Source of the DNA: Labrenzia sp. 011
Lineage (GTDB): Bacteria; Pseudomonadota; Alphaproteobacteria; Rhizobiales; Stappiaceae
Direction of reading: 5' to 3'
Length of the DNA stretch: 64,000 nt
Assembly (NCBI RefSeq): GCF_003075075.1
Contig: NZ_QCYM01000063.1
Coordinates: 1 to 64,000 of the forward strand
Position numbers and translations under genes: made by a program. Positions within the stretch are counted from its first letter, which is position 1. Every line of letters begins with the position of its first letter. The notes beneath the pieces were generated by a model. It did no database searches, was not told where the DNA came from, and saw only the letters and a program-made list of their open reading frames with translations. This document shows positions 54,231 to 64,000 of this stretch, one piece after another.

Positions 54231-56127
<1,897 letters not shown>

Positions 56128-58923: not shown

Positions 58924-59691
58924 ATGGCAGACCTGACCAGGCGCAAATTTGTGAATTTGCTTTCATTTATGCTGTCGTTAGTCATTTTCTGGCTGACGGG
59001 CGCAACAAGTTCGGCGAAGGGAAGCAGGCTGGATCTGGCCGACCCCGTCGAAACAGGTACCTGGAAGTTCAACACCCCCGGACGGATATCGCCCGCGGGC
59101 AGGGTATTGCCTGTCGAGGGAGTTGCTGGGGGAGAGCGGACTTCCGGCACGCTTGAAAGCGGCAGCGACAGTGCAAACACGGTCGTTGCCTATGGAGGCG
59201 AGTCTCCCGGCGCCAGGGCGGGGTCGGGAAGCGAGCCGATCAATCCCAATCAGTATGTTCCCGGAAAAACGGGGACGAACGCCCGACTGGAACGGGTGAC
59301 GCTACAGCGTTTTCTGAACACCCGGGCGCGAATAACCTCCGTGTCAAAGAGATGCGCAACGAAAATTCAGCGCGGTGAGGAGCCGCTCAGGTGCATTGAG
59401 AATGTGCTGAGGGAATTCGAGGCGCGCCTGGAACGGGAGGCCGGCCGCGGAAGCGGTGTTGCGAAATCGGCCTTGCCGATCGTCAGGCAGATGGTCAGAG
59501 ATGTCCGCGAGGCAAAAAGTGGCAAGGCGGGCCTTGCAATCGTGCGCAGGGGGATCGGCAAGGTTCAGCGCATTCGCCTCGTCAGATCACAGGATGCGGT
59601 GGTCGCGAAACTTCAGCAACAGCAGCGCGCCGTGCTGGTAGAGACATTGCAGGCTGTGGAGATCAACCTTGTGAAAGCGATCGCGATTTGA
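58924..59691 (+). CDS. Exported hypothetical protein with Tat-like signal
   Basis: 255 residues, not recognised. N-terminus T-R-R-K-F-V-N-L-L-S-F-M-L-S-L-V-I-F-W-L carries a twin-arginine motif (T-R-R-x-F) followed by a hydrophobic core and a likely cut near A-T-S-S-A-K. A low-complexity Gly/Ser/Thr/Pro part (about 35-120) leads to a basic helical C-terminal domain with two Cys (R-C-A-T-K, L-R-C-I-E). Start at ATG 58924, with GGTGG upstream. Twenty bases ahead of the caspase gene, same direction. Confidence 0.75.
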   Translation: MADLTRRKFVNLLSFMLSLVIFWLTGATSSAKGSRLDLADPVETGTWKFNTPGRISPAGRVLPVEGVAGGERTSGTLESGSDSANTVVAYGGESPGARAGSGSEPINPNQYVPGKTGTNARLERVTLQRFLNTRARITSVSKRCATKIQRGEEPLRCIENVLREFEARLEREAGRGSGVAKSALPIVRQMVRDVREAKSGKAGLAIVRRGIGKVQRIRLVRSQDAVVAKLQQQQRAVLVETLQAVEINLVKAIAI

Positions 59692-59711
59692 ATGGACGGC
59701 TTTTCCCGGTC

Positions 59712-61685
59712 ATGAACTGGCTCGTGGTCCGGCTGCTGCCGGCGAGAATGCCGGTCCTGGCCTGCGGGCTTCTTCTGGTTGCCTTGTGTTGCGGACCTGC
59801 GTCGGCCGAGGGCGAAGCCGCCGGCATCCGGATGGCGCTCGTCATCGGCAATTCCAATTATGTTTCCGAAAAGCTGCCGAATGCAGGCAACGATGCGCAG
59901 AGCATTGCCACCACACTGCAAACCCTCGACTTCGACGTCCGGCTGGTGCTGGATGCGACCCGCGATCGCTTCATCGGCGAAATAGAAGAATTCGCGGACG
60001 ATACGCTGCGCCGCAACGCAAGCGTCGTGCTCGTCTATTATGCCGGCCACGGGGTCCAGCTGGCCGGAAAGAACTACTTCATCCCGGTCGACGCGCATAT
60101 CAGCGATATCGACAGTCTCGTGGCGGAAAGCGTCCAGTTCGACCACCTCCTGAACCAGGTCGGGAAAAGCAGCTCGTTCAAGATGATCTTTCTCGACGCC
60201 TGCCAGAACAATCCGTTCCAGGACCGCATCGGCAGCGTCGGGGTCGGTCTCGCCCCGCCTCCGGACGTCAGCGGGTTCCTGATCGGTTTTGCGACACAGC
60301 CCGGAAAGGTCGCCTATGACGGGGCTGGCAACAACAGCCCCTATACATCTGCGCTCCTTGCCAACATGCATGTGCCGGGACAGGAGGTCCTGTCCGTGCT
60401 GGCGGAGGTGAACCGCCATGTACGCAAGGACACCGGGGGCGCCCAGGTTCCCTACGTTCAGTTTTCGGTCAAGCCGGAATTCTACTTTCTTCCGGGCGAG
60501 AAGGCCGACCAGGACGTCGAGGTCCGGCTCTGGAAGCTGGCTGCCCAACAAGCCGATCCCGAACTCATCAACCTGTATGTGGAGCGCTATCCGGAAGGCC
60601 GCTTTGCCGGCGAGGCACGCACCTTGCTGGACAAGGCGGAGGCTGATCTGGCCGGCAGGGGGACGCAAGATCCCGAGAACCGCGACAGGCTGGAAGAGGA
60701 AATCTGGACAAATGCCCTGGCGTCCCGCAACGGGTCCCTGCTCGAATATTACATAGAACGCTTCCCCAACGGGCGGAACCTGGAGCAGGCGAAGGAACTT
60801 GTCACCCAGCTTGCCCCCGGCGATGAGGCGAACATATCGCCCGCTGAACTCTGCCGGAAATATGCCACTCATCCCAATGATTCCACGGTTATCTACCGGG
60901 GTGTTTCGCTCGAGCGGCTGGCAAGAAATTCCGCGGCGGCCGTGAAGGCCTGCGAAGAATCCGTGAGGACCTATCCGGAAGATCCGCATTACAAGGCCCT
61001 GCTTGCCCGCGCTCTGGCCGCCGGCGGCGACACCGATCGCGCGGTAGATTTCTACAAGCAGGCCGCACTGGCAGGAAACACCCGGGCGCTGGTCAGCCTC
61101 GGCCTGTTCTACGAACTGGGCCAGAGCGTGCCGAAAAACCTGGTGACGGCAAGAGCTCTGTTCGAGGAGGCCTACAGTCACGGCAGCACGGACGGAGCGA
61201 TCAACCTGGCCGTTTCGCTCTACTCGGGAACCGGTGGGGAGCGGGACGTTCCGCGCGCGATCGCTCTGCTGGAGTTCGCCTCTTCGGAAGGGGCGGCCAG
61301 AGCGACGTATAATCTGGGCGTATTTGCCAAGGAGGGCGTCAACAAGTCGCCTGAAAACGCCGTGGCCTATTTCGAGCTTGCCGCCCGGCAAGGCTATGCG
61401 GAAGGGGCGCTCGCAGCCGCGGCGATCTACGACGAAGGCTTTCACACCGAGAGAGCACCGCAAAAGGCCTCGGAACTGCTTTTGTCGGCGCTGACCTCGG
61501 ACAATGGCGAGATACTTTCGAAGCTTGCTGCCGACGCCGACAGCTGGTCGCGCGAAACGATCCTCTCCCTCCAGTCGCAAATGAAAACGGCGGGATATTA
61601 CGAGGGGACCCTCGACGGCGTCCCCGGTCCGCAATTCAATCGCGGCCTTGAACTGTGGCGTCTCTACGGTGGATCGCCGTCCTGA
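59712..61685 (+). CDS. Exported caspase-fold (C14) protease with Sel1-like repeats
   Basis: 657 residues. Signal peptide (A-R-M-P-V-L-A-C-G-L-L-L-V-A-L-C-C, cut near A-S-A-E). Caspase domain (about 38-265): R-M-A-L-V-I-G-N-S-N-Y, the catalytic His in Y-Y-A-G-H-G-V-Q (His113) and Cys in F-L-D-A-C-Q-N-N-P-F (Cys164). A linker and TPR-like part precede Sel1-like repeats (about 430-610), e.g. A-L-V-S-L-G-L-F-Y-E-L-G and A-T-Y-N-L-G-V-F-A. The C-terminal segment G-Y-Y-E-G-T-L-D-G looks like a peptidoglycan-binding motif. Likely periplasmic or outer-surface; substrate unknown. Start 59712 is given; TTG 59688 is in frame. Confidence 0.88.
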   Translation: MNWLVVRLLPARMPVLACGLLLVALCCGPASAEGEAAGIRMALVIGNSNYVSEKLPNAGNDAQSIATTLQTLDFDVRLVLDATRDRFIGEIEEFADDTLRRNASVVLVYYAGHGVQLAGKNYFIPVDAHISDIDSLVAESVQFDHLLNQVGKSSSFKMIFLDACQNNPFQDRIGSVGVGLAPPPDVSGFLIGFATQPGKVAYDGAGNNSPYTSALLANMHVPGQEVLSVLAEVNRHVRKDTGGAQVPYVQFSVKPEFYFLPGEKADQDVEVRLWKLAAQQADPELINLYVERYPEGRFAGEARTLLDKAEADLAGRGTQDPENRDRLEEEIWTNALASRNGSLLEYYIERFPNGRNLEQAKELVTQLAPGDEANISPAELCRKYATHPNDSTVIYRGVSLERLARNSAAAVKACEESVRTYPEDPHYKALLARALAAGGDTDRAVDFYKQAALAGNTRALVSLGLFYELGQSVPKNLVTARALFEEAYSHGSTDGAINLAVSLYSGTGGERDVPRAIALLEFASSEGAARATYNLGVFAKEGVNKSPENAVAYFELAARQGYAEGALAAAAIYDEGFHTERAPQKASELLLSALTSDNGEILSKLAADADSWSRETILSLQSQMKTAGYYEGTLDGVPGPQFNRGLELWRLYGGSPS

Positions 61686-61731
61686 ACATCTCCGGACGGA
61701 CCGGAAACCGTTTTCTCGGCAAGGGCAGACT

Positions 61732-63921
61732 ATGGAACTGGACGTCCTTTATCTGGCAGACCTGCGCTTTCCGGGCGGTACGGCCACATCACTCAGATAC
61801 GACCTGAGAGCCTGCAGGCTGGCGGGGCTCAGGGCCGGGATTGTGCCGCTGTCATCACCCCTGTTTCCCAGAAGCCTCGTTCCGAATTCCGCGTTGCTCG
61901 CTGAAATTCAGGCGACCGGCACGGTGATCGTTCCGCAAAACGAACGACCGAGGGCCCGGGTCGCTCTTCTGTATCATCCCTCCCTGCTGGACAGGACGGT
62001 GCATGTGCATGCCGGATTCGACGCGGATGTTTTCTATGTTGTGGTCCATCAGCCGACGCGGGACCGCAGAGGACGTTCCTATTACCGGACGGGGACCTGG
62101 GCCGGACTGGCGGCCGACTGGTTCGCCCAGGACCTGCGGCTGCTGCCGGTCAGCGACGTCGTCCGCAGGGATCTTGCGCGGCAGGATCTTTCCCATGCGC
62201 TTCACCCCTGTAACTGGACCAACCTGATCGATCCGGCGGACTTTCCGCAAAAGCGGACGGGAGAGGTGAAGGGGCCGGTAACGATCGGCCGGCACAGTCG
62301 ACCGTCCCGGGACAAGTTTCCCTCTCCGCAGGTCACCCTGGCATGCTATCCGCGCGGCCCGGATTTCAACCATCTGATGATGGGCGTGCCCCAGGACTTT
62401 CTCGACGAATTCGAGACACTGCCGTCGAACTGGCAGATTTATCCCTTCTCGTCCTGGCCGGTGTCCGAGTTCCTGCGCAGCCTGGACATCTACAGCTATT
62501 TTCACTCGGACACCTGGATTGAAGCCTTCGGCTACAATGTGCTCGAAGCACTCGCGACCGGACTGCCCTGTGTGGTGCCGCATTACATGAACGAGACCTT
62601 CTCAGACGCCTGCTTTTACGCAGACCCTGAAGAGGCGCCGCAGCTCTACGACCGACTTCGCTCCGACCGGGCGCTCCGCGAAGAGGCGTCCTCAAGAGCG
62701 CGGGACCATGTCGTGTCCCGTTTCGCGCTGGATCAGTTCGCAAGGAAGTTTGAAAACGTTGCCGAAGCGCCCCGGGTTTCGTCACCCGCAAGTCCGGTGA
62801 AGCGCGAAACATCGGAGAAGCCTGTTGTACTGTCGGTGACCTCCAACGGCATCGGCCTGGGCCACCTGACCCGCCAGATTGCCATAGCCGAAGCGCTCGG
62901 ACCTGCCGTCAATGTGGTTTTCTTTTCGCTTTCGGAAGCGATCGAGGTCGCCCGGTCCATGGGGTATCTGGCCGAATTCCGCCCCTTCCATCGCAGGCTG
63001 CAGCTGGATGTCGAGGAGTGGAATGGCTTTTTCTTTCAGGAAATGCGCGAGGCGCTCAGTCACTACAGGCCGGCCCTGGTCCTGTTCGACGGCAACATGC
63101 CCTACAGCGGCTTCACCGATGCCCTGGATTCCTACGGCAAAAGCTATTGCGCCTGGATCCGGCGGGGGCTGTGGCGCACGCCGCAGCCCGAAAGCATCGC
63201 CCGGGAAGGGGCTTTCGATGTCATAATCGAGCCCGGAGAACTCTGTGAAGCTTTGGACCTCGGATATTCGAGCGTGAATCCGGACAATGTTGCCAGGGTA
63301 AACCCGGTCCTGATGACCCAGCCGCACCAGCTCCTCGACAAGACCGCTGCCAGGCGCGCGCTCGAACTGCCGGAGAACGCAACATTGTGTCTGGTGCAGC
63401 TCGGGGCGGAAGCCAATTTCGACATGTCCCTTCCCAGGGAACTTCTGTTCGACTTTCTTGACAGGCATCCGGAGGTGATTGCTGTCGATGTCAGGTCGCC
63501 GCTGCATGCGACCGGTCATGCCGATATTCATGAGCGTTTCCTTCTGCGTCGGCTTTTCCCGCTCGGCCGTTATCTGAAAGCGTTCGACTTCGCTGTCTGC
63601 GCTGCCGGATATAATACGTTTCATGAAAACATCGCCGCCGCGCTGCCGACGCTATTCATCCCCAACAGCAATCCCGAAACCGACGATCAGGACGCGAGAG
63701 CCCTGCATGGCGCGCGCGCCGGATGGAATCTGGCAAGCACGGCAGACGACCCCTACGAGATTGAAACACAGCTTCGAAAATTGCTCGATCCCGAGGTTCG
63801 GCAGACATTGTCGCTGGCCTGCGGACGAAAGACCGGTTGCTGGGACGGTGCCTCGCAAATCGCCCGCCAGTTGCGGATACAGGCCCGGCTTCCGGACTCC
63901 TTTCAGGTGCCTGAACGATGA
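61732..63921 (+). CDS. Two-domain glycosyltransferase (GT4-like + GT28-like)
   Basis: 729 residues. N-terminal half (about 1-345): G-G-T-A-T-S-L-R-Y-D-L and the donor-site E-A-F-G-Y-N-V-L-E-A-L-A-T-G-L-P of GT4 enzymes. C-terminal half from about 363: V-T-S-N-G-I-G-L-G-H-L-T-R-Q and A-A-G-Y-N-T-F-H-E-N-I-A-A-A-L-P, the hallmarks of GT28/MurG-like or UGT-like transferases. The two GT-B folds are joined by a linker at residues about 345-362. No signal or TM helix. Probably cytosolic and adds two sugars, or one domain may be regulatory. ATG 61732 follows AAGGG. Confidence 0.85.
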   Translation: MELDVLYLADLRFPGGTATSLRYDLRACRLAGLRAGIVPLSSPLFPRSLVPNSALLAEIQATGTVIVPQNERPRARVALLYHPSLLDRTVHVHAGFDADVFYVVVHQPTRDRRGRSYYRTGTWAGLAADWFAQDLRLLPVSDVVRRDLARQDLSHALHPCNWTNLIDPADFPQKRTGEVKGPVTIGRHSRPSRDKFPSPQVTLACYPRGPDFNHLMMGVPQDFLDEFETLPSNWQIYPFSSWPVSEFLRSLDIYSYFHSDTWIEAFGYNVLEALATGLPCVVPHYMNETFSDACFYADPEEAPQLYDRLRSDRALREEASSRARDHVVSRFALDQFARKFENVAEAPRVSSPASPVKRETSEKPVVLSVTSNGIGLGHLTRQIAIAEALGPAVNVVFFSLSEAIEVARSMGYLAEFRPFHRRLQLDVEEWNGFFFQEMREALSHYRPALVLFDGNMPYSGFTDALDSYGKSYCAWIRRGLWRTPQPESIAREGAFDVIIEPGELCEALDLGYSSVNPDNVARVNPVLMTQPHQLLDKTAARRALELPENATLCLVQLGAEANFDMSLPRELLFDFLDRHPEVIAVDVRSPLHATGHADIHERFLLRRLFPLGRYLKAFDFAVCAAGYNTFHENIAAALPTLFIPNSNPETDDQDARALHGARAGWNLASTADDPYEIETQLRKLLDPEVRQTLSLACGRKTGCWDGASQIARQLRIQARLPDSFQVPER

Positions 63922-64000
63922 GGCGGCATCTGCAAACCATCGGGCTCAGATATGCCCTGCGCGGTCTTCGTGTTCTCCGGCGCGCCGACAAACCCGATGC
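63918..64000 (+). CDS. Start of a following gene, cut by the window end
   Basis: ATG 63918 overlaps the glycosyltransferase stop (ATGA). 27 codons are visible: M-R-R-H-L-Q-T-I-G-L-R-Y-A-L-R-G-L-R-V-L-R-R-A-D-K. The basic N-terminus gives no family. The overlap shows that the cluster continues past the window. Confidence 0.6.
   Translation, partial: MRRHLQTIGLRYALRGLRVLRRADKPD

Follow-up and report, generated by a model that had tools for sequence, protein, structure and literature searches.

A two-cysteine tail domain paired with one caspase clade in a four-gene cassette of Roseibium and in relatives beyond the genus

In HMW1 and HxuA, which belong to two-partner secretion (TPS), a disulfide lock keeps the C-terminus of the exoprotein (TpsA) periplasmic, and HMW1 has a glycosyltransferase partner, HMW1C (PMC5422565). 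The C-terminal prodomain of Bordetella FhaB is processed by periplasmic proteases (PMC8263021). Caspase homologues are common in Alphaproteobacteria, and additions of Sel1, TPR and peptidoglycan (PG)-binding parts are known for the orthocaspase class (PMC3501461). Here we describe a cassette of four genes, g1 to g4, on the + strand at the end of a 64,000-base stretch of Labrenzia sp. 011 DNA (the window, which is bases 1-64000 of the 108,716-base contig G000:C63, RefSeq NZ_QCYM01000063.1). The cassette joins an exported protein, a caspase family protein and a double glycosyltransferase with its small partner.

Genes g1 (58924-59691) and g2 (59712-61685) are separated by 20 bases and g2 and g3 (61732-63921) by 46, while g3 and g4 overlap by 4 (ATGA); on the sequence, these coordinates agree with a preliminary description of the window, which had listed four same-strand genes with this spacing. 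The continuing gene that it placed last is g4 (63918-64373, with 63918-64000 in the window), which crosses the window end and is only 151 aa long. The central result concerns g1 and g2: a partnership between the C-terminal tail of g1 and the caspase is strongly supported by comparative genomics, as the earlier pairing of the protease with an exported partner had anticipated.

The tail domain and its caspase

The g1 product is an exported protein of 255 aa which, by its open reading frame (ORF), homologue alignment and AlphaFold2 model, consists of an N-terminal hydrophobic signal or anchor, a disordered linker and a helical tail domain. In the model an N-terminal helix is followed by a disordered stretch (residues 27-115; confidence score pLDDT under 50) and then by helices at 116-253, mostly scored about 85-98. 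The tail (aa 116-255; 59269-59688, +) contains cysteines C144 and C157 and matches TpsA C-termini. No family in Pfam or NCBIfam matches g1, and the tail, helical and about 140 aa long, is on sequence grounds a candidate new protein domain. In a fold search its best match was pectin methylesterase inhibitor (Z 7.7), which is common for helical bundles and was not used, and its sequence returned only coiled-coil noise from the PDB. The preliminary description took g1 for a Tat-signal protein. That label is dropped, as the twin arginine is not conserved: the window protein has TRRKF, RR occurs otherwise only in the far homologue G102, and the seven other Roseibium homologues have TKRK (KR in 7/9 homologues overall).

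Outside Roseibium, in other families and in Rhodobacterales, the tail forms the extreme C-terminus of TPS exoproteins. In G218 the g1 profile matches a 1624-aa exoprotein (PF05860, MBG repeats) over its final ~80 residues with 26.3 bits, versus 14.2 for the best of 5000 shuffles, and the gene order is TpsB, tail-bearing TpsA, then a g2-orthologous caspase directly downstream. A caspase search in the family of G218 gave four more genomes. Short exported tail proteins stand directly upstream of the caspase in G834 and G916; in G907 a 1235-aa TpsA (PF05860 present) carries the tail and is adjoined by TpsB and a divergent caspase; and G868 has a 181-aa tail protein with the caspase on a different contig, so co-occurrence is not merely linkage. 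We then have five plasmid records that matched the G907 tail with no caspase criterion applied, from Sulfitobacter sp. S223, Pseudosulfitobacter sp. DSM 107133, Paracoccus alcaliphilus, P. zhejiangensis and P. methylovorus. Each of the five tails ends an MBG/filamentous-hemagglutinin (FHA) protein, and the next gene, at most 21 bases away or overlapping, is annotated as a caspase family protein; an annotated TpsB precedes in four. TpsB (ShlB) stands directly upstream of TpsA in relatives, and PF05860 is present in relatives L102 and L151.

The sample was 249 genomes of the order plus targeted sets. Searched across the class, the first g1 profile returned its own genome alone, and tblastn of Roseibium g1 against plasmids gave no match; the plasmid members were found with the more central tails of G907 and G834. 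Weak partial matches in G081, G257, G263, G168 and G238 (E 1e-5 to 7e-3) had neither exported protein nor caspase in their 1.5-kb flanks and were not counted, nor was a match in G188 (E 1.9e-4) that lies inside a hydantoinase-like gene. All 19 tails coexist with caspases of one clade (support 99/98), adjacent in 18 cases and on different contigs in one, and C144 and C157 are invariant in the alignment of all 19. Each tail-positive genome that was re-scanned has a single tail. As a control, five tail-less TpsA loci of Roseibium, in three cassette-bearing genomes, have neither tail nor caspase nearby.

The four Rhodobacterales plasmid sets L150-L153, each with TpsA and caspase, lie beside the type VI secretion system (T6SS) gene tssH, with a Ser/Thr kinase gene between in three.

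The caspase, g2, is a protein of 657 aa with a signal peptide, a caspase domain (59829-60485, +), TPR/Sel1 helical repeats (60921-61511, +) and a PG-binding-like end (61539-61682, +), an architecture read from Pfam and from Roseibium orthologues. The caspase domain scores 136.5 bits against PF00656 (cut-off 21.4). Of the C-terminal parts named in the preliminary description, Sel1 is found in three stretches (PF08238, 55.3 bits), the TPR is sub-threshold, and the PG-binding-like end has no Pfam match in the window protein; in relatives it scores 22.4 and 23.7 bits against PF01471 (cut-off 23). Both catalytic residues that had been reported are present, His113 (60048-60050, +) and Cys164 (60201-60203, +), and the dyad is kept in close homologues: H113, C164, D61 and D162 are invariant, and position 203 is D or E, in 19/19 clade members.

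By sequence the closest solved caspase domain is that of MALT1 (E 9e-10). An alignment of the clade with MALT1 places the acidic S1-like residues D61, D162 and D203 of g2 (+ strand, caspase domain) opposite D365, D462 and E500; in MALT1 three acidic S1 residues serve P1-Arg (PMC4626109). Since these residues have acidic counterparts throughout the clade, g2 probably cleaves after basic residues (Arg/Lys). Between the caspase and Sel1 parts, C381, C414 and a Cys...T-H-P-x-D stretch (H387-P-x-D390) are almost invariant in the clade, which suggests a further conserved functional site or a disulfide.

The cassette and its glycosyltransferase module

The preliminary description looked to gene order in Stappiaceae relatives, and there the order proves conserved. 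Full-length g2 orthologues (67-86%) occur in six of 36 congeners, each time in the order g1-g2-g3-g4; a genus-wide search with the g1 profile was positive in 8/45 Roseibium genomes, and the one that it added to these eight, G061, likewise has all four genes. The cassette in eight Roseibium genomes keeps one gene order at three different genomic sites, and therefore moves as a unit. Three genomes share the neighbours seen in the window; G026, G002 and G061 have it at a second site, with amidohydrolase and amino-acid ABC transporter genes; G019 alone has the third. All four genes are under purifying selection (dN/dS 0.08-0.33). G102, from another family, has g1 and g2 (53% identity) without g3 and g4, so g1 and g2 are the core pair, and the system is made of two separable modules, g1+g2 and g3+g4.

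Some neighbours of the cassette recur. A conserved sulfotransferase-like gene is convergent with and next to g4 in G026 (region L037 3931-5885, +), G002 (region L038 11770-14668, -) and G019 (region L039 5319-6149, +); past it, G026 and G002 have family-2 glycosyltransferase and radical-SAM genes. At L039 11900-14548 the G019 cassette adjoins genes that look phage-like by eye (ORFs of lysozyme and tail type), which may mark how it moved.

The g3 product was described as a fusion of GT4 and GT28 glycosyltransferases. The GT28-like C-terminal half stands (25.6 bits, cut-off 22); the GT4-like N-terminal half falls just under its cut-off (23.1 versus 25), and the assignment also draws on family alignments and on relatives elsewhere and on plasmids. 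In Pfam and NCBIfam, GT28 C-terminal and GT4/GT1 models match and no HMW1C model does. Relatives of g3 are spread across Hyphomicrobiales and Rhodobacterales, many on plasmids, and several have a g4-like partner beside them (E 7e-4 to 5e-10). The g4 alignment has invariant E90, P93, R114 and W122; an alpha/beta fold is predicted, which weakly matches GT-B glycosyltransferases and may amount to half of a GT-B-like domain.

That the protease sits next to a sugar-transfer enzyme was already remarked in the preliminary description, and the association recurs. A caspase lies within 10 kb of a g3-family gene in four of the six non-cassette genome loci whose genomes have caspases (G322, G270, G318 and a second G019 locus are linked, G139 and G202 unlinked), which has a chance of about 4e-7 under a simple uniform model. 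The single caspase found in the 6.4 Mb of G322 by a PF00656 search is the one near its g3 relative. Among plasmid regions 14 of 16 examined have a caspase near the g3 relative, several of these regions being close relatives of each other. In the tree the glycosyltransferase-linked caspases outside the cassette are polyphyletic, with at least three to five origins. The glycosyltransferase module thus joins different caspases repeatedly, and descent from one ancestral pair is ruled out. Other partners at these loci vary: heparinase II/III or alginate-lyase-type proteins, methyltransferases and radical SAM proteins, and T6SS-type genes in Rhizobium and Rhodobacter.

VgrG and DUF6484 recur beside a g3-type glycosyltransferase and a caspase in Rhizobium-type T6SS loci (L106, L113, L119, L120, L121). 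G019 (L107 8262-13863) and Rhodobacter sp. CZR27 (L123 5848-11455), from different orders, share another glycosyltransferase-caspase cassette, in which a small lipoprotein separates the two genes; its two caspases are sisters (100/100). A Sinorhizobium meliloti ORF annotated SUMF1/EgtB/PvdO (L111 3018-4943, -) has a caspase domain inside and adjoins the glycosyltransferase pair and another caspase family protein, which is very divergent. Subscription papers aside, the literature gave nothing joining caspase family proteins with Rhizobium VgrG/glycosyltransferase loci, nor the CHAT domain with filamentous hemagglutinin.

Around the window cassette, a class-III-type aminotransferase gene, unrelated, lies downstream of g4 on the same strand. 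Just upstream of g1 is an Rfam match to the alphaproteobacterial small RNA ar35 (RF02346; 58121-58244, -; 50 bits, gathering score 45). A nearby ORF (54664-56109, -) resembles an ATP synthase beta subunit and appears to belong to an additional ATPase gene cluster.

Proposed mechanism and alternatives

From the gene order, the co-occurrence, the shared tail, the single caspase clade, its dyad and the recurrent glycosyltransferase-caspase linkage, we infer that a periplasmic caspase docks on and processes exported proteins that bear the tail, and that it is joined here with a glycan-modifying module; we put the probability of this reading at about 0.5. The first module would be g1 and g2, an exported protein with a two-cysteine tail and, dedicated to it, a periplasmic caspase from a single clade. 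This enzyme would dock on the tail and cut the protein carrying it after a basic residue (Arg or Lys), while the TPR/Sel1 repeats and PG-binding-like end would hold it near the cell wall and feed it. In other bacteria the tail ends FHA-type adhesins, and as a small domain locked by a disulfide it would be expected to remain periplasmic, as in HMW1 and HxuA; the caspase would then decide between attachment and release of the adhesin. A TpsA that ends in a two-cysteine helical tail, next to the gene of an exported caspase, fits an anchor with its own protease. The same tail is carried in Roseibium by a short protein with a signal or anchor and a disordered linker, and there the caspase probably acts on g1 or is controlled by it. 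The second module would be a cytoplasmic double glycosyltransferase, g3, with its small partner g4, which together would build a surface glycan or attach one, either to the same surface target or to one that is co-regulated. A glycan-decorated surface system under proteolytic control had been suggested from the start. Of this, the link between protease and partner is strong; that to a glycan is real at the level of gene linkage only.

Several observations weigh against docking and processing. The N-terminal hydrophobic stretch of g1 is conserved as well as the tail (mean identity 0.72), and this points to a membrane anchor more than to a simple signal peptide. Alignments of g1-type proteins reveal no invariant basic cleavage site in linker or tail, and the linker of one of them, L131, is entirely free of Lys and Arg, so that the tail may act as a regulator instead of a substrate. 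Five of the eight cassette-bearing Roseibium genomes, that of the window among them, are without any TPS domain (PF05860), and neither TpsA (g1 has no Pfam family) nor TpsB is found among the ORFs neighbouring the window cassette; an adhesin-release role, as such, is thus inapplicable there. Nothing ties the glycan to g1. Much of this would suit a tail that regulates the caspase as one of its subunits, whether by inhibiting it, activating it or anchoring it to the membrane; on TpsA such a tail would bring the caspase to the secretion pore or silence it, and as short g1 it would act as a free regulator, with the substrate elsewhere on the surface. The shortness of g1, which has no large passenger, and a tail conserved as a folded helical domain agree with such a role. 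However, the tail ends large exoproteins of a kind that needs processing or anchoring in known systems, and a mere regulator would not require fusion to every such TpsA; we consider this explanation rather unlikely.

Docking and processing must also be weighed against antagonism or cell death, in which the system would be a T6SS accessory or serve toxin processing or defence, the caspase acting upon attack or contact. Tail-caspase triads lie beside TssH in 4/5 plasmid loci, glycosyltransferase-caspase pairs occur in Rhizobium T6SS loci with VgrG, TssM and TagF, a Rhodobacter cluster combines such a pair with DUF2169/DUF4150 genes, and caspases are known as releasing peptidases in polymorphic toxins (PMC3482391). 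Beside the Roseibium cassettes, though, no T6SS gene was recognised in the stretches read (no whole-genome T6SS scan was made), the g2 signal peptide argues against a cytoplasmic effector, and curated defence models fit poorly: the EACC1 caspase of NCBIfam scores 47.9 bits, far under its cut-off of 140, and the PADLOC caspase gives a weak, generic match of 33.1 bits to the domain only. We regard antagonism as improbable. Least probable is an accidental neighbourhood, in which a caspase paralogue would have nothing more than a transcription unit in common with the small exported protein and the glycosyltransferase. The genus has many caspase genes, so that a few neighbours by chance are to be expected, and a scan of the four-gene unit for promoters and terminators gave no pattern above chance; yet the constant order at three sites in eight genomes, the chance value of the glycosyltransferase-caspase linkage and the one-to-one co-occurrence of tail and clade-specific caspase, even unlinked, largely refute it.

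A broader proposal, which we hold tentatively and at somewhat worse than even odds, is that these loci represent an undescribed class of alphaproteobacterial envelope system. A C-terminal 'caspase-partner' domain on exported proteins, which may be giant adhesins of TPS systems or else short and anchored, would mark them for a dedicated caspase of arginine type, associated with the wall, that controls their anchoring or release; some lineages would add the glycosyltransferase pair, and others would sit in T6SS loci.

The targets of bacterial caspase homologues are largely unknown. Here genome comparison names one physical partner for one clade, in a pairing that spans at least two orders and includes an unlinked case; it defines a putative new domain and finds a particular double glycosyltransferase repeatedly travelling with caspases. 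The question of what such caspases do (programmed death or signalling) is narrowed to binding and cleavage between two proteins, and another job, control of surface adhesins, is suggested. If the broader proposal is true, it would give exported bacterial caspases their first identified set of cognate targets.

Comparison with known systems

HMW1ABC and HxuA are like the present systems in having an exported protein whose two-cysteine domain, at the C-terminus, would be expected to be periplasmic, and (for HMW1C) a glycosyltransferase in the gene set, and relatives of the cassette have TpsB and FHA-type TpsA as well. They differ in that here there is a dedicated caspase, the tail is helical and about 140 aa long, the glycosyltransferase is a GT4+GT28 fusion and not of HMW1C type, and the window cassette is without TpsA or TpsB. 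Processing of FhaB by DegP, CtpA and SphB1 is similar in that periplasmic proteases handle the C-terminal part of a TPS exoprotein, whereas the candidate protease here is a clade-specific caspase, of another class than these three, encoded beside the exoprotein.

Polymorphic-toxin releasing peptidases (PMC3482391) are also caspase-like peptidases linked to secreted proteins. Their caspase is a toxin domain in cis, whereas here it would act in trans on a separate exported protein, and no toxin domain was recognised. With MALT1 paracaspase, the nearest solved caspase domain, g2 shares the three acidic S1 residues in alignment; unlike MALT1 it is bacterial and exported, is without Ig domains and has other partners. 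Orthocaspases (C14B) share with g2 a caspase domain with the His/Cys dyad and the Sel1, TPR and PG-binding additions, and the clade defined here differs from them in having an obligate exported partner, whose domain is not described in the literature searched.

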